From positions 1 to 48,456 of the forward strand of contig QCDL01000009.1 in assembly GCA_003280915.1 (NCBI GenBank): a DNA stretch of 48,456 nt, in the 5' to 3' direction. The position numbers were made by a program, and so were the translations under genes. The stretch comes from Prochlorococcus sp. AG-355-I04. Lineage in GTDB: Bacteria > Cyanobacteriota > Cyanobacteriia > PCC-6307 > Cyanobiaceae. Position 1 is the stretch's first letter; every line of letters begins with the position of its first letter. The notes under the pieces are model-generated. The model had not been told where the DNA came from and ran no database searches. It worked only from the letters and a program-made list of their open reading frames with translations. This document shows, one piece after another, positions 1,082 to 21,839 of this stretch.

Positions 1082-1248
1082 AACTATTAATTTATCAATT
1101 TGTATTTTACATTTTATGAAATAAATAAAAATCTTATAAGTGTATTTTAGGGTGCATAATTGCTTAAACAAGCTTGGACAAATACGTACAAAAATTATCT
1201 TATTACTAAACACCGTCTAAAAACTATTGGTATGAAAGCAAAATTAAG

Positions 1249-1325
1249 TGGAGGCAAGGAGACTCGAACTTCTGACCCCCTGCATGCCATGCAGATCACC
1301 ATTCAAGCTATTACTAGGTTTTGCA
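1249..1325 (-). pseudogene. Decayed tRNA-Ala copy A
   Basis: On the minus strand this aligns along its length to the intact tRNA-Ala at 2607-2679. The anticodon-arm core TGCATGCCATGCAG (plus strand) is unchanged. The T arm and acceptor carry several substitutions, and the D arm and 5' acceptor half are badly degraded, so no cloverleaf can form. Bases just beyond its 5' half (actaggttttgcaa) match those beyond copy B (actagtgtttgcaa), showing that both copies arose by the same type of event. Confidence 0.7.
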
Positions 1326-1340
1326 ACTTTTCGATGATTA

Positions 1341-1360
1341 GCTCGCAGACTAGCTCGCAG
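1341..1360. repeat. Paired 8-bp repeat, copy A (gctcgcag x2, 12-bp period)
   Basis: Two exact gctcgcag copies begin at 1341 and 1353. The same pair, as ggtcgcag, recurs at 1551/1563 and 2492/2504 with the same 12-bp period. Constant spacing next to tRNA copies suggests recombinase arm-type binding sites; a repeated LVA-type codon pattern at the end of a vanished gene is the alternative. Confidence 0.6.
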
Positions 1361-1456
1361 AGAGTGCATATTAATACATATTTAGACAATAAAATACATG
1401 ATGTATTCCTGTGTATTTTCGTTCAAACTAATTGGTATAACTGCTGAAAATCCTGA
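1361..1456. repeat. Spacer repeat between 8-bp pair and tRNA copy B
   Basis: This 96-bp segment is homologous to 2512-2606 (95 bp). Shared blocks include atatttagaca, an aaatacaycatgta-like block, and the block ttcaaactaattggtataact ending just before the tRNA 3' end. The module of paired repeat, about 95 bp of spacer and tRNA is therefore duplicated as a unit. Confidence 0.65.
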
Positions 1457-1525
1457 TGGAGCCAAGCGGACTCGAACCGCTGGCCCCCTGCATGCCATGT
1501 AGGTACTCAAGTAAGCTATGACTAG
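1457..1525 (-). pseudogene. Decayed tRNA-Ala copy B
   Basis: The first 43 bases (1457-1499) are identical to 2607-2649 of the intact tRNA-Ala, covering the 3' acceptor, T arm, variable loop and 3' side of the anticodon arm. Beyond the anticodon the D arm and 5' acceptor are altered (taggtactcaagtaagctatg against the intact caggtgctctaccagctgag), so it should not fold. An identical 3' half and diverged 5' half are typical of a displaced target left by integration at a tRNA. Confidence 0.75.
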
Positions 1526-1550
1526 TGTTTGCAAATGTTTTAGCTAAGTT

Positions 1551-1570
1551 GGTCGCAGGGCTGGTCGCAG
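1551..1570. repeat. Paired 8-bp repeat, copy B (ggtcgcag x2, 12-bp period)
   Basis: ggtcgcag starts at 1551 and 1563. This copy lies just past the 3' end of the FkbM gene, and copy C lies just past its 5' end, so the two pairs bracket the methyltransferase gene. Confidence 0.6.
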
Positions 1571-1607
1571 GGATAACAATATTATAATATCTGAAAAATA
1601 CTTCCTT

Positions 1608-2420
1608 TTATTCATTAAGAAAATAATCATTAGCAAAATATAAATTTTCATCATCTTCTACAAAAGCTTTGAAATTACAAGTATCAATTTTTTTGAATTT
1701 CAAAGAATTCATAAATTTTATTAAAGCTTCTTTTGTCCTTGGATTTTGCTCCATACAAACTAGTATTGGGGCGTTATGCATTAGAAAAGATTTAGCGCCA
1801 TTTAAAACATATAGCTCATGAGATTCAGTATCAATTTTAATTATTATTTTCTTATTCTTTTTTAAATGCAAATAATATTTATTTAAATTATCTAATGATG
1901 AAGCAAATACATTTAAAAAGTCATACTCTCTACAAATTTCATTATCTAAGATATGTGTTTTAACAACTTTATTAGTTTCTCCATATGGGACATTAGTTAT
2001 TTCAAGTAATGAGCATTTTTCAGACAATGCGATATTTAAAGGAACAATATTTTTAATATTATTCATTTCAATATTTCTGCATAGATTAATATAACTTGAG
2101 ATAACTGGCTCAAAACTATAAACCTTATCAACAAATCTGGAGATAATTAAAGATACTATTCCAATATTTGCTCCTATATCAATAAAAATACTATCCTTAG
2201 TAACTAATTTCTTTAAATTTACAATCGTAGGATCATTTTTGCTAAATTTTATAATTTGATAATTATATTCAAAATTAGAGAGAAAAGATAGATTACCTAT
2301 TTTTTTAATTCCGTTACTTTCAAGACAAGCAAATGAAATATATCTAATATATGAGGTTGTTTTAAATATAAATAATTGAAACCTATTTTTAATTTTTTTT
2401 AAAAGAGTAGTTGCTCTCAA
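1608..2420 (-). CDS. FkbM-family methyltransferase
   Basis: A 270-residue SAM-dependent methyltransferase of the FkbM (Methyltransf_21) type. The SAM-binding motif IDIGANIG is at about residues 80-87, the acidic ribose-binding FEPV near 109, and KIDTESHE in the second half is characteristic. FkbM enzymes usually O-methylate sugars or polyketides, so in this context a methylated surface sugar is likely. The gene stands alone on its strand, bracketed by the paired 8-bp repeats and by tRNA-Ala and its remnant, so it looks like cargo of an integrated element. No recombinase gene accompanies it. Family confident; substrate unknown. Confidence 0.85.
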   Translation of the reverse strand: MRATTLLKKIKNRFQLFIFKTTSYIRYISFACLESNGIKKIGNLSFLSNFEYNYQIIKFSKNDPTIVNLKKLVTKDSIFIDIGANIGIVSLIISRFVDKVYSFEPVISSYINLCRNIEMNNIKNIVPLNIALSEKCSLLEITNVPYGETNKVVKTHILDNEICREYDFLNVFASSLDNLNKYYLHLKKNKKIIIKIDTESHELYVLNGAKSFLMHNAPILVCMEQNPRTKEALIKFMNSLKFKKIDTCNFKAFVEDDENLYFANDYFLNE

Positions 2421-2491
2421 AATTTCTTCTATTTAGTTTTATTTTAACTATTTACAAAATTAAAAAGCTGTTTTACGAGATTATCAAATTT

Positions 2492-2511
2492 GGTCGCAGA
2501 GGTGGTCGCAG
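2492..2511. repeat. Paired 8-bp repeat, copy C (ggtcgcag x2, 12-bp period)
   Basis: ggtcgcag starts at 2492 and 2504, 95 bp from the 3' end of the intact tRNA-Ala. Its distance to the tRNA matches that of copy A to tRNA remnant B (96 bp). Confidence 0.6.
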
Positions 2512-2606
2512 AGAATATATATTTATAAATATTTAGACATGAAATACACCATGTAAAATGGCATAAAATCATTCAAACTAATTGGTATAACTTGTGAAAA
2601 TTCTGA
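2512..2606. repeat. Spacer repeat between 8-bp pair and tRNA-Ala
   Basis: Partner of 1361-1456. It is best conserved over the 30 bases next to the tRNA 3' end, including the block aactaattggtataact. Confidence 0.65.
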
Positions 2607-2679
2607 TGGAGCCAAGCGGACTCGAACCGCTGGCCCCCTGCATGCCATGCAGGTGCTCTACCAGCTGAGCTATGGCCCC
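2607..2679 (-). tRNA. tRNA-Ala(GGC)
   Basis: The minus strand folds into a complete 73-nt cloverleaf. The acceptor GGGGCCA pairs with TGGCTCC; the D arm is GCTC/GAGC; the anticodon stem CCTGC/GCAGG encloses loop ATGGCAT with anticodon GGC; the T arm is AGCGG-TTCGAGT-CCGCT; the discriminator is A. The 3' CCA is not encoded. It sits at the island edge and appears to be the live integration target whose displaced copies lie at 1457-1525 and 1249-1325. Confidence 0.95.
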
Positions 2680-3099
2680 ATATATTGAAACAACAGTTTT
2701 ATCGATTAATCTGAAGATTTATTTCGTAACTGTCGTTATTCTTATATTACTTTATAGCGTTTAACAATTGAAATTTGCACCTTAAAAACGAACTAGGAGA
2801 TTTGCAAGCTCTATTATGCTTTCTAGTACTTTTATAAAGAAAATTCTGCACCACTTAAAAGGTTAATTGGTCATGGGTGGTCTGTTGAAGATAGAAAAAG
2901 TTGAAGAAGATAAATTAATCAGATAAAAACTGTTAGGGATTTAGAGTTGATCTTTATATAAGTGAACCGCAGAGAAAGATATCTAAAAATAAAATTAGAT
3001 ATTAATAATTTATAAAAAAATTACTTCAAAATTCAAAATTATTATGATTAGTTAATTTTAAAAAATAGGATATATAATATTAAAATAAATTAGAAAAAA
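2680..3099. other. Intergenic stretch upstream of the cyclitol-type operon
   Basis: These 420 bp contain no open frame with recognisable similarity. Bases 2800-2970 are less AT-rich than typical spacer here and read like decayed coding sequence with several stops, possibly remains of a recombinase or small gene; I cannot identify it. The last 40 bases are A/T-rich and carry a good -10 candidate just before the operon. Confidence 0.4.
3073..3078 (+). promoter_or_regulatory. Candidate -10 box TATAAT
   Basis: A perfect TATAAT lies 21 bp before the ATG at 3100, which would give a leader of about 15 nt. No clear -35 is seen. In such an AT-rich sequence chance matches are common. Confidence 0.3.
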
Positions 3100-9524: not shown

Positions 9525-10778
9525 ATGAACTATATATTTAAATTATTAGTATCTTTTACATTAGAGTTTTTTATATATATTTTTTATTTATTAAGTTTAC
9601 TTAAATCTTTTATATTTTTCTTTAAAACTAAAAAATGTAAATTAAGAAAAAATAATAAAAATATTGAAGTATTAATTTTTAAATCAGGAACTATGGGAGA
9701 TCATTTGATATGTATCGATTGTTTGGATAAAATATCTAAAATTGATAATTCAATAAAGAAAACTATAGTATGTAAAAATAGCTCAATTTTCCCAGACTTA
9801 AAAAAATTTTCTTCACTTAATAATGTTGAACTTATTCCCTATAAATTGTTAATTGATTACTTTTTTAAAAATATTTTTTCTGAGAAAATAAAACTTATTA
9901 TTGACACTGAGCCTTATTTTCGGTTGGGATTATTATTTGGACTTATTATGCCAAAATCCATTATTTCCTCAAATTATAGGATTCCTTATGATAATCATTT
10001 TGAAAAATTTTATCCTTATATTCATTTCAATCATTATGATGAAAATTTGCAAGAGGGTTTTTATATAATTAAGTTAATAAACAATAGTATCGATATATTT
10101 TTGAAGAAATTTGAAAAAAATAGTAGGCTTCGAAAAATAAAGGCTATTGAGTTCAAAAATAATTTCTTAGTTTTAGACAATCCTAATATTGATTTAAAAA
10201 AAGTAAAATTTCATGATTCTTTTATTAGTAGAACTAATTTAGAGAATCGAAAATTAGTTTACTTGTATTATGGATGCTCTGGTAAGGCAATGCATAGATT
10301 ACCTCCGGTAAATTGGTTGAAAAATTTCGTAAAATTGTTAATTGACCGATATTATATTTTTTATGTAGGAGGTCCTTCGGAGGTTAGATTGGAAAATCTT
10401 TTAGGTGAGGAAAAATTTTCTTCCTATTCTTTTATAAATAATTTTTCATTAACAGATTGGTCAATGATCTTAAATCATTCAAAGTATAGAATACCTCTTA
10501 TTTCTTTTGATGGAGGTTTTTCGCATCTTTTTGGTATTAATTCTCCTATGATATTTCAAGTATTTTGCAGTAGCAATAATTATAAATGGAGAAACAAGTC
10601 AGATCAATCTTTTGTATATTCTTGTCTAGATGGGGGTTCTCCAAACTATAAACCTTTTAAGTTTAGGGTTCCTCAAGAATGTCTTATTAGTCAAAATGCC
10701 TGGTTGAGTTCTAAAGAGATTGATCTTTTCCAAAAGTTTGATTCTTGGTTTGAAAATATTAAACAAAATAACCTATAA
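9525..10778 (+). CDS. Divergent GT9-like glycosyltransferase
   Basis: A 417-residue protein with a hydrophobic N-terminal stretch (residues 5-35), then IFKSGTMGDHLICID, equivalent to the KxGxIGD opening of heptosyltransferases. YYGCSGKAMHRLPPVNW mid-protein and ISFDGGFSHLFGI correspond to the C-terminal donor-binding block. It is more distant than the 8127 and 20658 genes and lacks their cysteine tail. It lies 33 bp upstream of sdhA on the same strand. Donor and acceptor unknown; GT-B fold inferred from the motifs. Confidence 0.6.
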   Translation: MNYIFKLLVSFTLEFFIYIFYLLSLLKSFIFFFKTKKCKLRKNNKNIEVLIFKSGTMGDHLICIDCLDKISKIDNSIKKTIVCKNSSIFPDLKKFSSLNNVELIPYKLLIDYFFKNIFSEKIKLIIDTEPYFRLGLLFGLIMPKSIISSNYRIPYDNHFEKFYPYIHFNHYDENLQEGFYIIKLINNSIDIFLKKFEKNSRLRKIKAIEFKNNFLVLDNPNIDLKKVKFHDSFISRTNLENRKLVYLYYGCSGKAMHRLPPVNWLKNFVKLLIDRYYIFYVGGPSEVRLENLLGEEKFSSYSFINNFSLTDWSMILNHSKYRIPLISFDGGFSHLFGINSPMIFQVFCSSNNYKWRNKSDQSFVYSCLDGGSPNYKPFKFRVPQECLISQNAWLSSKEIDLFQKFDSWFENIKQNNL

Positions 10779-10811: not shown

Positions 10812-12563
10812 GTGCAGGAACGATACGAAACTCAAATTTCAAATATTCTAATTATTGGAAGCGGTGGGGCAGGTTTAAGAGCAGCAATAGAATGTAAAAA
10901 ATATGGAATGACTGTTAGTGTTGTTGGTAAGAGGAATAAGCTTGATGTCCATACAGTTCTAGCAGCTGGAGGCATTAATGCTGCTTTTGGTAATATTGAT
11001 AGAAAAGATAATTGGCAAAAGCACTTTGCGGATACATATATTGAAGGTTACGAAATAGGTGAACCTAAAACCATAGAAATAATGACTAAAGAGTCTCCTG
11101 AACTTGTAAAGGAGATTGATAGCTGGGGAGCTGATTTAGAAAAAAATGCAGAGGGATTAATTGATCAAAGATTCTTCGGGGCTCACTCATATAGAAGAAC
11201 TTGTTATTCAGGAGATCATACTGGTAGACAAATACTTAAAGCACTATTATTTAAAGCTAAATCAATGAAAATTAAAATAAATGATTCAATATATGTAACT
11301 GACCTACTTGTTAAAGAAAATGTATGTTTTGGAGCAACCTCATTTGATATTAATACTGGAGAAAAAATTCTACACTTATCTGATGCAGTAATCATTGCTG
11401 CTGGGGGTCATACAAGAATATGGAATAAAAGTTCTTCTAGGAAAGACGAAAATACTGGGGATGGTTTTTATTTGGGCTTAAATGCCGGCTGCGAGCTTAT
11501 GGATTTAGAGATGACACAATTTCACCCAACTGGAATGTTAATGCCAGAAGAATTGGCAGGTACTTTAGTAACAGAGGCTGTCAGAGGCGAAGGTGGAAAA
11601 CTATTTAATTCATTAGGTGAAAGGTTTATGGAGAAATATGATAAAAATAGAATGGAGCTTTCGACTAGAGATAGAGTCGCAATGGCAAATTATACTGAAA
11701 TTCAAGAGGGGAGAGGGACTGCCAACGGAGGGGTATTTCTTGATATTTCTCATAAAGATAAAGACTTCATCTTAAAAAAATTACCTTCAATTTATAAACA
11801 ATTTATAGATTTGCAAAAATTAGATATCTCAAAAAATCCTATGGAAGTCGCTCCGACTGCTCACTATTCAATGGGTGGAATTTTAGTTACACCTGATGAA
11901 CATAAAACAAGTGTTGAAGGATTATTTGCTTGTGGAGAAGTAGCAGGAGGACTACACGGTGCTAATAGACTAGGAGGCAACTCATTAGCTGAAATTTTGA
12001 TTTTTGGGAGAAGGGCAGGCAAATTTGCTTCTTTGTATTCCAATGAAATCAAATATCAACAAAGGTCAAAAAAAATTGTTCAAGAAAATTTCGATAAAAT
12101 TGATAATCGGATCAAAAATGGGAACGAGATGGGAAGGCTTATTGAGGACGAATTACAGAAAATCATGTGGAAACATTGTGGGGTTATTAGAAATGGTGAA
12201 AGTTTGAAAAAAGGTCTTGAAAAACTCCGAAATCTAAGAATTAGATTTAATGATCTTGATGTAAGGGTTGGTTCACATGGATTTTCTGATTTATCTTTGT
12301 CTTTTTCTTTGGATGCCTCTATCCTCACGGCAGAGGCAACCATAATATCTGCTCTTAAAAGAAAAGAAAGTAGGGGTTCTCATCAAAGATCAGATTATCC
12401 AATGCTTAAATTAGAGGAAAAATGTAATTATTTAGTTAAATTAAATGATAAAGGTAAAATAATAGTAAACAAAAAAGAAATTTCTCCTTTAAGTAACTCT
12501 CTCCAAAAAATTTTAAAGCAATCAAAAACTATTGATTGTTTTAAGAACAAGCTTCTAGAATGA
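10812..12563 (+). CDS. sdhA: Succinate dehydrogenase / fumarate reductase flavoprotein subunit
   Basis: A 583-residue FAD protein of normal SdhA/FrdA length. It has the dinucleotide motif GSGGAGLRA (16-24), the covalent-FAD histidine H47 in DVHTVLAAGG, the active-site segment QFHPTGM, VTEAVRGEGG and HGANRLGGNSLAE. It would oxidise succinate to fumarate at the membrane, passing electrons through an iron-sulfur subunit. No sdhB, sdhC or sdhD lies in the window, and its neighbours are glycan genes. The start is GTG at 10812. L-aspartate oxidase is related, but the length, His-linked FAD and C-terminal domain favour SdhA. Confidence 0.9.
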   Translation: MQERYETQISNILIIGSGGAGLRAAIECKKYGMTVSVVGKRNKLDVHTVLAAGGINAAFGNIDRKDNWQKHFADTYIEGYEIGEPKTIEIMTKESPELVKEIDSWGADLEKNAEGLIDQRFFGAHSYRRTCYSGDHTGRQILKALLFKAKSMKIKINDSIYVTDLLVKENVCFGATSFDINTGEKILHLSDAVIIAAGGHTRIWNKSSSRKDENTGDGFYLGLNAGCELMDLEMTQFHPTGMLMPEELAGTLVTEAVRGEGGKLFNSLGERFMEKYDKNRMELSTRDRVAMANYTEIQEGRGTANGGVFLDISHKDKDFILKKLPSIYKQFIDLQKLDISKNPMEVAPTAHYSMGGILVTPDEHKTSVEGLFACGEVAGGLHGANRLGGNSLAEILIFGRRAGKFASLYSNEIKYQQRSKKIVQENFDKIDNRIKNGNEMGRLIEDELQKIMWKHCGVIRNGESLKKGLEKLRNLRIRFNDLDVRVGSHGFSDLSLSFSLDASILTAEATIISALKRKESRGSHQRSDYPMLKLEEKCNYLVKLNDKGKIIVNKKEISPLSNSLQKILKQSKTIDCFKNKLLE

Positions 12564-12614
12564 TAGAATTCAGATTTAGTCTATCTAAAATAAAGAGTTT
12601 AAAATCTTATTTTA

Positions 12615-13505
12615 ATGAAGAAACTTAAAAATATTAGTATTGTTCAAAGAAGTCATATTGAATCTAAGAATATATTTTTTCTTTTGCATAATAAATTTTT
12701 TAATAATCTATCCAAGCAATTTGGATATAAGTTCTATTTTTTGTTTTTTATTAGTATCTTAATAAAATTGCCTGGAATTATATTGCATTTTATTAGGACA
12801 TCTTTGAATATTCAAAAGCCAAAAAATACTTTTTTTCAAAAAAAAGTTTTAAGAGAACTTAATGAATTCGGGTTTTCAATAATAAAAAATTCTTATTTTA
12901 GTTCTAATTTTTTAGATAAATTAAATAAATCATTTTATGAAAAATATTCAATTAAAAATATTTCTAAACTTTCTGAACCCATTATTTATGTACCATTATC
13001 AAAAACTAATTTAAAAAAGGTTTTAAGCATTATTGAAAAAAATTATATGTCTATGATATCAAAATATTTATTTATGCTTCCATATCTAAAAACAGTTACT
13101 TATATGTATTCAAAAAATGAAAGCAATTTTAAAAATAGTAGCCAACATTGGCATTTAGATAGGGTAGGACTAAGAACATTAAAATTATTTTTAGCATTAC
13201 ATGATCAAGAAGAAATAAATGGCCCTTTAACGTTTATTGATTCTAAAAGATCAGAATATCTTGTAAATCATTATAGATATAGTAAAACTAATCAATTTAA
13301 AAGAATATCAGATAAATTGATAGATAAAGAATTTGATAATTTAAAATTTAAACCATCAAGATTTATTGAAAAAAAAGGAAGTTTAGCATTTTTAGATACA
13401 GATAGATGTTTACATTATGGAAGTAGAAAGTCTCTTAATCCTAGATTGTTTTTATATATTGAATTTGGCTCATATTTAGATTTTAAAATTCCGTTTTTAT
13501 TTTAA
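12615..13505 (+). CDS. Phytanoyl-CoA-dioxygenase-like 2OG-Fe(II) oxygenase
   Basis: A 296-residue protein with the iron facial triad visible: H180-x-D182 in QHWHLDRVG and H267 in CLHYGSR, with R277 in NPRLF placed to bind 2-oxoglutarate. The pattern matches PhyH-type oxygenases, which hydroxylate lipids, amino acids or sugars. A hydrophobic segment at about 40-60 may anchor it to the membrane. It starts 52 bp after sdhA, and its 3' end overlaps the WavE-like gene tail-to-tail by 9 bp. These enzymes release succinate, the SdhA substrate, though functional linkage is only a guess. Confidence 0.78.
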   Translation: MKKLKNISIVQRSHIESKNIFFLLHNKFFNNLSKQFGYKFYFLFFISILIKLPGIILHFIRTSLNIQKPKNTFFQKKVLRELNEFGFSIIKNSYFSSNFLDKLNKSFYEKYSIKNISKLSEPIIYVPLSKTNLKKVLSIIEKNYMSMISKYLFMLPYLKTVTYMYSKNESNFKNSSQHWHLDRVGLRTLKLFLALHDQEEINGPLTFIDSKRSEYLVNHYRYSKTNQFKRISDKLIDKEFDNLKFKPSRFIEKKGSLAFLDTDRCLHYGSRKSLNPRLFLYIEFGSYLDFKIPFLF

Positions 13506-14510
13506 ATTTTGTTTATAAGCTGAAAATACCAATTCACTTTTTTTATTTTCTAAAATGAACTTTTTGTAATTATCTGTGCATTTCTTACCTCTCCAAACTA
13601 TAGAAGATTGAAATTTAAATGTCATAGGGATAATAAATAAATCGTATACTGCATGAAATAAAAAACTTTCATATAAAACATAAATTGAAAAAATTATTCT
13701 AGAAAGAGAATATATCATTCTAATAAAAAATCGTGATAATAAAATACTAATTTTTAGTAAAAAAGATTTAGGTTTATTATTTATTTTTAAAGGGTTACAA
13801 TAAATCATATTCAGAATCATATTTCTAGATAAAACTTTAGGAGCTTTTTCTTTGTATATTAAAAATCTTGGAAGATAAAGTGAAGCGATTGTTTTAATAA
13901 TATCTTGATGGACACTGTAAGCATAATCATTATCATTTAAGCAATTTTTATATAGCCTATTGTAAAGTTGAAACATCACTTCCAATTTACCTCCAAAAAT
14001 AAAATCGATGAACCATCTTGAGTTACTTTCCATCCAATATTGATTCATAATTTTCCCTTTAATTAGATCTTTAATATTTAAATCAACCAAATGTTTTAAT
14101 TGTTTAATATCAAACTTAATATCGGTTCTAGTTCTTATTAAGATATCTTCATCTCGAACAATATTATTTGAAATTAAATATGTTATTCCATAATTCATAG
14201 CATAATAATGGAAAAGTTTATTTTTCTGATTATAATTACTATTTAGTTTACCCCTAGGAAAATCTATATCTGGTATTGAGATAATTTTTGATTGGTCTAA
14301 AGCTTTAAAGAAAATATCATTTTTAAAATTTTTAACATCTTTTTCCCAAAACAAAAAATAACAAACAAAGTTTTTCTCTTCTAATTTTGATGATAGTTTT
14401 GAAATGTCCTCAAGAACACAATATTCTATATTCTTGGATGAATCCTGGCAACTTTCGAAAGTTCTACCCTTTGATAATATTGCACCTTGGAAAAGAATAA
14501 TTTTTCTCAT
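13497..14510 (-). CDS. WavE-like LPS-core glycosyltransferase
   Basis: A 337-residue protein with features of the WavE lipopolysaccharide-synthesis family: DEDILIRTRTDIKFD in the first half (an RTRTD/DxD-type nucleotide-sugar motif), then WFIDFIFGGKLEVMF. A hydrophobic region at about 255-295 precedes the C-terminus. WavE was described in Vibrio cholerae LPS core synthesis. It is 4 bp downstream of the ABC exporter gene on the same strand, so the two are probably cotranscribed and may act on the same heptose-bearing glycan. Confidence 0.7.
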   Translation of the reverse strand: MRKIILFQGAILSKGRTFESCQDSSKNIEYCVLEDISKLSSKLEEKNFVCYFLFWEKDVKNFKNDIFFKALDQSKIISIPDIDFPRGKLNSNYNQKNKLFHYYAMNYGITYLISNNIVRDEDILIRTRTDIKFDIKQLKHLVDLNIKDLIKGKIMNQYWMESNSRWFIDFIFGGKLEVMFQLYNRLYKNCLNDNDYAYSVHQDIIKTIASLYLPRFLIYKEKAPKVLSRNMILNMIYCNPLKINNKPKSFLLKISILLSRFFIRMIYSLSRIIFSIYVLYESFLFHAVYDLFIIPMTFKFQSSIVWRGKKCTDNYKKFILENKKSELVFSAYKQNLK

Positions 14511-20657: not shown

Positions 20658-21839
20658 TTAAATATTCATTAATTCTAGAATTTTATCAATGTTATCTAAA
20701 TTTAAATTGCAGCAATTTTTCGATTCAATAATTTTCTTAAATCTTTTATCATTATGAATTGGACATCTAATATTTCTTTTGTAAAAAATCCAATTGAATT
20801 TTTTGCTGCCTAAATTGATATTTTTGATTAGTGTATATTCAATACTATTATAATTTAGTTTATTTAAATACAATTGTTTATTCCAAATATGATGGCCCCA
20901 TTGTTTTCTCGAGGTATGAGAAAACAATACTAAAGTTTGGGTACATAGACTTGCTAGATGCATAGGTCCGCAATCAAATCCAATTACTAATTTAGCTTTT
21001 CTAAAGATAAAAAATAATTCAGATATCTTTGTACTATTTATTAATTTAATATCATATTTTTTGCTAAAATCATTAAAAAATTTTTTAAAATTAGGCTCTT
21101 CCTGAATATAAAGTTTTAATTTATTTTTATTACAATAATCTCTTATTTTATAAATAGTATTTGTATCTATTTTTCTCCCTGGATCAAGACCAATTCCTAA
21201 AAAAACAATAATACTATTTTTGAATTTTGAATATTTATCTTTTGAAAGATTATCAATATTTCTATTTAAAACCTTAATTCCCTCTTCAACAGAGAAATTA
21301 ATTTTTAATATATCAAAGGCATTTTTTACATAGTTTGTTTGAGATTTCTTTGAGGCATAATTAGGCGAATATAATATTGGATAACCTTTTTTGGGCGAAT
21401 TTAGTAATCCTACTTGAGTAAATATAAAATATTGTTTAGAATCTTTTATTTCTTCAATACTTTCAAAATTATATCCACTTAAATTAGCACCTAAGTAGCA
21501 ATTTCTTGGTGGCATTTTTTTTAAATCAAACCAATTATCATCAAGTTTTAATTCTTTTAAAATCAATCTAATATAATCAGATTTTATGTAAAATTTTTCA
21601 TTGCTTTTAGATCCTAAGATAAATGGTAATGTTAATATTGAGTCTCCAAGTCTATCATTTCTGATAATAAATTTAATTGGCTTGTCTTTAAAAATTCTTT
21701 CTAATTTTATAAAAAATATTTTTTTGTTAATAAAAAGATTTGTTATATAAACGAACTCATAAATCAATCCTATAAGTAAATTTATGATTTCTGTAAAATT
21801 ATCAAGAAAAGAATTGCTAAAAAATTTTTTTAATGACAA
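20658..21839 (-). CDS. GT9-like (heptosyltransferase-type) glycosyltransferase
   Basis: A 393-residue paralogue of the 8127-9308 protein. It has RNDRLGDSILTLPFI near the start, GIGLDPGRKI mid-protein, FDCGPMHLASL as the donor block, and a matching Cys-containing tail (RCPIHN, then NCCN). The N-terminal 50 residues include a hydrophobic segment. It converges with the ADP-heptose operon with a 2-bp gap from its last frame. ADP-heptose is a reasonable donor given the location, but GT9 members may use other donors. Confidence 0.76.
   Translation of the reverse strand: MSLKKFFSNSFLDNFTEIINLLIGLIYEFVYITNLFINKKIFFIKLERIFKDKPIKFIIRNDRLGDSILTLPFILGSKSNEKFYIKSDYIRLILKELKLDDNWFDLKKMPPRNCYLGANLSGYNFESIEEIKDSKQYFIFTQVGLLNSPKKGYPILYSPNYASKKSQTNYVKNAFDILKINFSVEEGIKVLNRNIDNLSKDKYSKFKNSIIVFLGIGLDPGRKIDTNTIYKIRDYCNKNKLKLYIQEEPNFKKFFNDFSKKYDIKLINSTKISELFFIFRKAKLVIGFDCGPMHLASLCTQTLVLFSHTSRKQWGHHIWNKQLYLNKLNYNSIEYTLIKNINLGSKKFNWIFYKRNIRCPIHNDKRFKKIIESKNCCNLNLDNIDKILELMNI

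Follow-up and report, generated by a model that had tools for sequence, protein, structure and literature searches.

Why does a single tRNA-Ala(GGC) gene of Prochlorococcus sp. AG-355-I04 stand beside two displaced copies of its own 3' half? The stretch in question, hereafter the window, comprises the 48,456 nucleotides of contig QCDL01000009.1, which is contig 9 of a 1.56-megabase (Mb), 52-contig genome. We consider it very likely that this tRNA gene is an attachment site into which integrative elements, served by a family of tyrosine recombinases, have inserted time and again. The evidence supports at least three insertions on the 3' side of the gene: an element bounded by repeats of a type here called B, then one of type A whose cargo was apparently deleted, and then another of type A with an FkbM-family methyltransferase gene. 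An earlier reading of the same DNA (the original prediction) had claimed at least two stacked integrations, a number that now rises to at least three, with a separate event proposed on the 5' side; it had overlooked both the 5' side and the paired repeats, or arms, described below.

Displaced tRNA halves and paired repeats in the window

The features of the window are collected in Table 1; the tRNA gene is read on the minus strand, with its 3' side to the left. The run of identity between the nearer displaced copy (copy 2, from 1457) and the intact gene (from 2607) was exactly 43 bases long and stopped in the anticodon arm, immediately beyond the anticodon. When positions 1330–1620 were searched against the genome, 2488–2658 matched at 82% identity (E = 1.2e-42) and 1221–1326 at 75% (E = 1.5e-12), and the repeat extended about 115 base pairs (bp) past the tRNA 3' end, 1337–1508 aligning with 2488–2658. 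The original prediction had named the intact gene at 2607–2679, the copy at 1457 with 43 identical bases, an older copy at 1249 and the end of identity in the anticodon arm, all of which these data bear out. However, the 'decayed 5' half' that it had assigned to the copy at 1457 is instead the arm on the right of that copy (the P' arm), because it resembles the sequence to the right of 3'-half copies elsewhere and ends in a repeat pair.

Each tRNA copy sits in a unit of about 230 bp, flanked on either side by direct repeats that are paired at a 12-bp step. The pair TGGTCGCAGnnnTGGTCGCAG occurs at 1550–1570 and at 2491–2511, and the variant AGCTCGCAG at 1340–1360; with one mismatch allowed, these three type A pairs were the only ones in the whole genome. 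The two elements measured between tRNA copies are 1150 and 208 bp long; the shorter, between copies 3 and 2, is free of cargo. The interval from copy 2 to the intact tRNA is occupied by a complete type A element, the one with the methyltransferase gene. Three marks of a tRNA-targeted element are present: the intact tRNA at one end and a displaced fragment of the same orientation at the other, a fragment that contains the tRNA 3' end and terminates within the gene (the 43-base run), and cargo that differs among genomes at the tRNA-Ala site.

Five arm types beside tRNA-Ala(GGC) in the genus

We screened 147 genomes that were at least 80% complete, 118 of which have the tRNA-Ala 3'-half pattern (at most two mismatches). 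From 86 of these 118 we took 87 stretches (the window, 6 from genomes with the motif, 20 from genomes with at least two matches and 60 others), and 84 loci remained after L228, L260 and L283, which had no called tRNA-Ala(GGC), were dropped. Arrays are over-represented in this set, from which no genus-wide frequency can be derived. Arm types were set by eye from printed sequences and counted afterwards.

On the 3' side of the tRNA, three types of pair were distinguished, namely A (GGTCGCAG or GCTCGCAG), B (AGWGCA) and C (TTGCGA), and on the 5' side two, D1 (TGCGCCA) and D2 (TGCACCT), all with a 12-bp step. The position of the pair was nearly independent of its type: the distance to the tRNA was 102–125 bp for A, 108–111 bp for B (13 of 15) and 112–113 bp for C, and at the other end of the gene 89–98 bp for D1 and mostly 94–96 bp for D2. 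At the arm place of the intact tRNA, type A was observed 14 times against 0.007 expected from the rest of the 1.32 Mb, type B 12 times against 0.066, C twice against 0.005, D1 seven times against 0 and D2 15 times against 0.007. Chance is a poor account of the repeats, since type A pairs stand at the expected place in 14 of the 84 loci. Among 266 genomes of the genus, the exact TGGTCGCAG pair was present in 7 and the GCTCGCAG pair in 8, and a reversed control of the pair motif gave zero matches. The most likely role of these direct repeats is to serve as arm-type sites at which the recombinase binds.

Extra 3'-half copies, one or more per locus, were found in 26 of the 84 loci, those of L252 and L253 being weak (11 and 10 mismatches of 42). 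The original prediction had proposed to compare copy numbers among close strains; in other genomes of the set, one or more copies and different cargo were found at tRNA-Ala. The T stems were paired at all five positions in all 84 loci, despite five stem alleles. The allele TGCGG was seen in 5 loci, every one with type B on the 3' side (weakly in L249), and all 14 type A loci have the allele AGCGG.

Evidence for serial integration on the 3' side

In the mechanism that we propose, each element brings along the attachment core, a copy of the tRNA 3' half, flanked on both sides by an arm that contains two direct repeats at a 12-bp step. If such an element is mobile, crossover in the anticodon region would place it on the 3' side of the tRNA, and the insertion would supply a new tRNA 3' half while pushing the old half to the far end. 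The next element would then enter the rebuilt tRNA, and the youngest would adjoin the gene. If elements entered one by one in this way, the arm to the right of a displaced half should match the arm to the left of the next copy, and the arm to the left of the displaced half should belong to an older element.

We compared the arms at the two ends of each element with reference arms drawn from the same locus set, self-comparison excluded, using score thresholds of 60 for the arm on the left of a tRNA copy (P) and 46 for P'. Both end arms were of the same type in 19 of the 27 elements of the 26 multi-copy loci; one disagreed (L216) and seven gave no call. Moreover, the outer flank of the copy was of another type than the inner arm in 8 of the 26 loci (the window among them), a pattern that simple tandem duplication would not yield.

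The layers of the window can be followed from left to right. The type B arm left of copy 3 scored 201 against the arm of L219, where the maximum of 300 simple shuffles was 35; for the flanks of copies 2 and 1, its scores were as low as 27 and 25. To the right of copy 3, the P' arm at 1294–1360 shares its form with those of L311, L314 and L315. In the frame of the alignment, the single pair at 1340–1360 is 94 bp away from copy 3 on its left and 114 bp away from copy 2 on its right; by eye, its left flank is like P' arms (L315, L314) and its right flank like P arms (L309, L212). We infer that this is the site at which the second element lost its cargo by recombination between two identical pairs. 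The order of entry would accordingly run, on the proposed mechanism, from type B through type A, with its cargo later deleted, to type A with one FkbM gene, and the separate family D would have entered from the 5' side, leaving a broken recombinase. The oldest displaced half carries the T-stem allele AGGAG/CTTCT as against AGCGG/CCGCT, and the tRNA's own 3' half thus seems to have been replaced; that of the intact gene probably came from the youngest element. In L222 and L223, a second 3'-half copy was found only 144–145 bp from tRNA-Ala with a type C-like pair between, another cargo-less layer.

Table 1. Features of the tRNA-Ala(GGC) locus in the window
Feature	Position	Strand	Evidence and remarks
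Type B P arm of the presumed oldest element	1106–1248		Repeat pair AGTGTATTTTAGGGTGCA at 1139–1156; 128/145 columns identical to the L219 arm
Copy 3, presumed oldest displaced tRNA-Ala 3' half	1249–1293	minus	T-stem allele AGGAG/CTTCT
P' arm of second element, type A, subtype GCTCGCAG	1294–1360		Score 65 to other type A P' arms
Single repeat pair AGCTCGCAGACTAGCTCGCAG, common to P' and P arms of second element	1340–1360		
Remaining P arm of second element	1361–1456		Homologous to 2512–2604
Copy 2, displaced tRNA-Ala 3' half	1457–1499	minus	43 bases identical to intact gene
P' arm of youngest element	1500–1570		Repeat pair TGGTCGCAGGGCTGGTCGCAG at 1550–1570
FkbM-family methyltransferase, cargo of youngest element	1608–2420	minus	Pfam PF05050, E = 4.2e-8; TIGR01444, E = 1.5e-22
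P arm of youngest element	2491–2604		Repeat pair TGGTCGCAGAGGTGGTCGCAG at 2491–2511
Intact tRNA-Ala(GGC), target	2605–2680	minus	ARAGORN, only one call; Rfam 2607–2679, 65.5 bits
Degenerate type D2 arm, tRNA 5' side	2776–2794		10/14 motif positions
Putative relic of D2-type tyrosine recombinase N-terminus	2845–2928	plus	Two internal stops; 46% identity over 28 residues, E = 0.0149
Surface-polysaccharide island, tRNA 5' side	3100–48456		

Recombinases beside the arms

The original prediction had pointed to elements with a matching attachment core and a recombinase gene as a check on its claim. Recombinases of one family were found at 13 of the 84 tRNA-Ala loci, and the full-length genes, of about 430–440 amino acids (aa), begin beside arms: B arms in L213 and L219, D1 arms in L020, L217, L220 and L222, and a D2 arm in L273. 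Fragments were found in L021, L210 (beside a C arm), L229, L247, L264 (beside a B arm) and L288. The proteins have a tyrosine-recombinase catalytic domain (PHROG phrog_1, E = 4e-20 for L020, 1.3e-16 for L213 and 6.4e-13 for L273) and a common N-terminal region. Their match to PF00589 is weak and lies under the Pfam cut-off, and the L219 protein was identified by Pfam and tblastn only; none of the solved structures matched. A PF00589 search of the 147 genomes was set aside as a route to the recombinase: among the matches listed, none lay less than 20 kilobases (kb) from the listed tRNA-Ala places. The family scores below the cut-off, and its members were found through the frames beside the tRNA.

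For type A, the pieces found are an 82-aa N-terminal fragment beside an A arm at the tRNA-Ala of L020 and two broken genes, one beside an A pair (L340) and one beside a single A repeat (L339). Relatives of the fragment occur in G059, G113 and G094 (51–64% identity over about 80 residues). In G059 and G113, related open frames of 424 and 453 aa stand at another place, with arms of the form TTGGTCACTCAG twice, and both genomes also contain tRNA-Ala.

The loss of the recombinase, as the original prediction had it, fits the window genome. No full-length relative came up there when three family members served as queries; neither the type A fragment nor two other members had a match, an empty answer that proves nothing by itself. 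A decayed stretch persists at 2845–2928, on the other side of the tRNA. The single PF00589 match in the genome is a 389-aa frame on contig 3, of a size that is common in the genus among the matches listed.

L220 (G106:C25) contains a recombinase frame on each side of tRNA-Ala: that on the 3' side has 441 aa (match at 10410–10637, minus strand, E = 0.004), its 5'-side counterpart 447 aa (11000–11242, plus strand). In L020 (G124:C24), a further 429-aa frame at −2646 to −1357 from the tRNA, with the family N-terminal pattern by eye, has the opposite orientation and adjoins the far tRNA fragment; its arm type was not recognised.

The 5' side of the tRNA gene

The locus L273 combines a D2 arm with an open recombinase frame, and the 5' flank of the tRNA in the window aligned with it over about 215 bp (score 187; the highest of 200 simple shuffles reached 29). 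The recombinase of L273, searched against the whole genome, matched at 2845–2928. On the strength of the DNA similarity, we propose that a D2 element entered the window tRNA from the 5' side and that a broken recombinase is its remnant; the relic is identified by its position and the DNA alignment, since the protein score alone is insufficient. No tRNA 5'-half copy that would close such an element was found in the 48-kb window with 13 of 34 mismatches allowed, and weak D2-like pairs (3 of 14 mismatches) lie at 21474, 28680 and 31908. Elsewhere, tRNA 5'-half copies were found in L021 at +1929 (0/34 mismatches) and in L018 at +4947 (7/34), both adjoining D-type repeats by eye, which supports entry from the 5' side in these genomes.

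A core gene was located in 25 of the 84 loci: at 68–69 bp from the tRNA 5' end in 7, at 1.9–5.3 kb in 12, and inverted on the opposite side in 6; in the other 59 it was not found within the stretch. The inverted neighbour on the 3' side (L287, L278, L249, L289, L231 and L259) appears as if the tRNA segment had been inverted. The core proteins of L021 were searched for in the part of the window 5' of the tRNA, which exceeds 45 kb, and had no match. The island there encodes NeuB, a cytidylyltransferase, a sugar transferase, and GDP-mannose dehydratase-like and DHQ-synthase-like proteins.

Alternative explanations

We further considered whether the repeated halves could have arisen otherwise. A non-mobile tandem duplication of the tRNA region that diverged later would account for copies that are direct and close together and for the cargo-free step between copies 3 and 2. 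However, it needs one flank common to all three copies, which was not observed: the flank left of copy 3 is of type B, and those left of copies 2 and 1 are of type A. In addition, the window repeats only the 3' half of the tRNA, and the cargo between copies differs in other genomes. We therefore regard this explanation, which the original prediction had named as one that would overturn its claim, as very improbable. A swap of cargo by homologous recombination between conserved arms, after natural uptake or transduction and with no recent action of a recombinase, is unlikely in our view, although it can be compatible as a second process. The arms are similar enough for homology, the second element resembles a deletion between its two repeat pairs, and a full-length family recombinase was not found in the window genome; yet such exchange leaves unexplained the new tRNA-half copies, the heterotypic layers in 8 of the 26 multi-copy loci and the recombinase genes that abut arms.

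Two variants concern the nature of type A. It is possible, if doubtful, that these elements are non-autonomous as a dedicated class and depend in trans on a recombinase from another place, rather than being merely decayed. They are small, mostly with one or two frames, and an intact type A recombinase beside them was not seen among the matches in the 266 genomes; the related open frames of G059 and G113, with arms of their own in genomes that have tRNA-Ala, also speak for this reading. The broken pieces beside A repeats (L020, L339, L340), however, fit ordinary decay equally well. Integron cassettes are single-gene units added in order beside a fixed site. That type A elements are integron-like cassettes with no recombinase of their own, single surface-modification genes that each stand between two cognate arm pairs and a tRNA half, are stacked in order at tRNA-Ala and are moved in trans by the recombinases of related elements, with a mirror family delivering polysaccharide islands on the 5' side, is a rather speculative extension to which we give limited credence. 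At the window locus, in contrast to integrons, the core is a tRNA half brought by each unit, and no integron integrase was recognised in the window genome, in which attC hairpins were not searched for.

The repeated entry of elements into the tRNA gene through a tyrosine recombinase family is the explanation that we favor, and several observations weigh against it. In 52 of the 84 loci, the intact tRNA had no recognisable pair of type A, B or C, and no intact type A recombinase beside an A-arm tRNA-Ala was found among the matches in the 266 genomes. L216 has a type C arm opposite a type B arm, and the two ends of the L022 element differ in subtype (GCTC at one, GGTC at the other). The scores of random pieces reached a maximum of 37 for P, well below the threshold; for P', two of at most 300 pieces exceeded the threshold of 46, with scores of 148 (perhaps a real arm) and 48, the next highest being 28, and L225 clears it with just 47. 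Finally, the putative recombinase relic on the 5' side is short, and its E value of 0.0149 is nearly tied with that of the 389-aa recombinase frame on contig 3 (0.0151).

Cargo of the elements

Type A elements measure 0.66–3.9 kb, the cargo-less one excluded, and mostly contain one or two frames of at least 70 aa. Cargo frames were listed for 17 type A loci, and 11 proteins, one per locus from 11 loci, were searched in Pfam; L211, L214, L217, L252 and L253 stood outside this search and L263 has no frame of 70 aa. The search identified four FkbM methyltransferases (window, L022, L212 and L225), a sulfotransferase (L020) and an SGNH protein (L227), and the remaining 5 of the 11 had no Pfam family. 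Among all listed frames, cross-matches were remote (26–32% identity) and confined to the FkbM-like proteins of the window, L214 and L225. The FkbM frame of the window comprises 270 aa from a TTG start; the gene may be shortened at its start, since the first ATG leaves just 152 aa. Type B elements are larger, at 6.8 kb in L213 and 13 kb in L219, with the recombinase beside the tRNA. L213 also encodes an AAA_25 protein and an excisionase-like protein, and the cargo of L219 includes TonB receptor, ABC, FecCD and ExbB-like genes.

Relation to known systems

The window system is tycheposon-like and tRNA-targeted: it shares with tycheposons the Prochlorococcus host, the tRNA target, the tyrosine recombinase and the cargo (PMC10872708), and the type B elements of L213 and L219 contain the recombinase beside the tRNA. 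Tycheposons are described as 4–200 kbp in size (PMC10872708), whereas the two type A elements of the window, at 0.2 and 1.15 kb (208 and 1150 bp), fall below this range and have no recombinase, the relic lying on the other side of the tRNA. The islands at ssrA in Dehalococcoides are similar in that they stand in tandem at one RNA gene, each with a repeat of its 3' end, and the integration module is absent in 15 of 31; they differ in their serine recombinase, tmRNA target and rdhA cargo, and the available text does not mention 12-bp paired arms (PMC3146451). Islands detected by Islander are likewise marked by an intact tRNA and a displaced fragment at their ends, with an attP of about 250 bp, known tandem arrays and 5' fragments in 159 of 3919 (PMC4383910). 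This method rejects candidates that are shorter than 2 kb or have no integrase and, in the text available, lists only four arrays of three or more (PMC4383910), and most type A elements would therefore escape it. Repeated partial tRNA copies in a Prochlorococcus island are also known from the pseudo-tRNA-Met copies near the P-SS2 site of MIT9313, which involve another tRNA, with 36-bp copies amid degraded transposases and a link to a siphovirus (PMC2784084).

Tandem islands at RNA genes, islands with 5' fragments and partial tRNA repeats in Prochlorococcus are thus already in print (PMC3146451, PMC4383910, PMC11476347, PMC2784084), as is the concept of an arm-binding domain (PMC8138268). The paired arms, the one-gene elements that lack a recombinase and the entry from both sides may be new with respect to the papers compared, among which the main tycheposon paper is not included; a literature search found no such arm code, most subscription papers, the original tycheposon paper among them, being beyond its reach. 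Should the arm pairs prove to be what they appear, they would constitute a readable code: the type of an element, its order of arrival and the likely family of its recombinase could be read from short DNA even once the recombinase is gone. Such a code would make the assembly of hypervariable surface-gene islands in Prochlorococcus testable. Our results also suggest that every insertion rewrites half of an essential tRNA gene with the T stem kept paired, and that tRNA-Ala(GGC) was entered from both sides. Gene flow through elements shorter than 2 kb without an integrase may be undercounted, since at least one island finder rejects them (PMC4383910).

The motif and the recombinase family at other sites

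Not every member of the wider recombinase family follows the rule of 12-bp pairs, as a comparison of 26 recombinase loci showed. Perfect 7-base pairs at a 12-bp step stood between the recombinase and the tRNA in eight tRNA-Thr(GGT) loci and in L290 (tRNA-Ser), and in L337 and L338 they adjoin a tRNA-like 5' half without an ARAGORN call. The tRNA-Thr(GGT) loci (L341–L346, L350 and L351) have pairs of their own, TTAGTGCGAATA-, TTAGTGCAAATA- or TTAGAGCAGAAA-like, between gene and tRNA. No perfect 7-base pair with a 12-bp step was found between recombinase and tRNA in L347, L348, L349, L352, L353 and L355, which lie at another site; in five of these six, a repeat at a step of about 10 bp was seen by eye. 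L336, L339, L340 and L354 had no perfect 7-base pair at the 12-bp step, and of the recombinases without a called tRNA (L291, L293, L296, L297 and L298), a pair, A+T-rich, was present in L298 only.

In viral and genome collections, the type A pair matched 36 viral stretches and at least 117 genome stretches. The flanks of these matches were ranked by G+C content and the 25 rows with the lowest values inspected; among the remainder, frames were inspected for L075, and tRNA calls for L075, L158, L060, L066 and L072. The informative matches were four Prochlorococcus contigs, already present in the genus search, and the viral contig L058. The latter contains, at 12314–13802, a recombinase gene, three TGGTCGCAG-like repeats and a tRNA-Gly, in the same order as at the window locus. 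We did not retain it as kin, its recombinase being only remotely similar (E = 0.003, in the catalytic part) and the shared motif possibly convergent. Long runs of 12-bp repeats of TGGTCGCAG or a related form were present in the viral contig L075 and in L158, a genome from outside Prochlorococcus.

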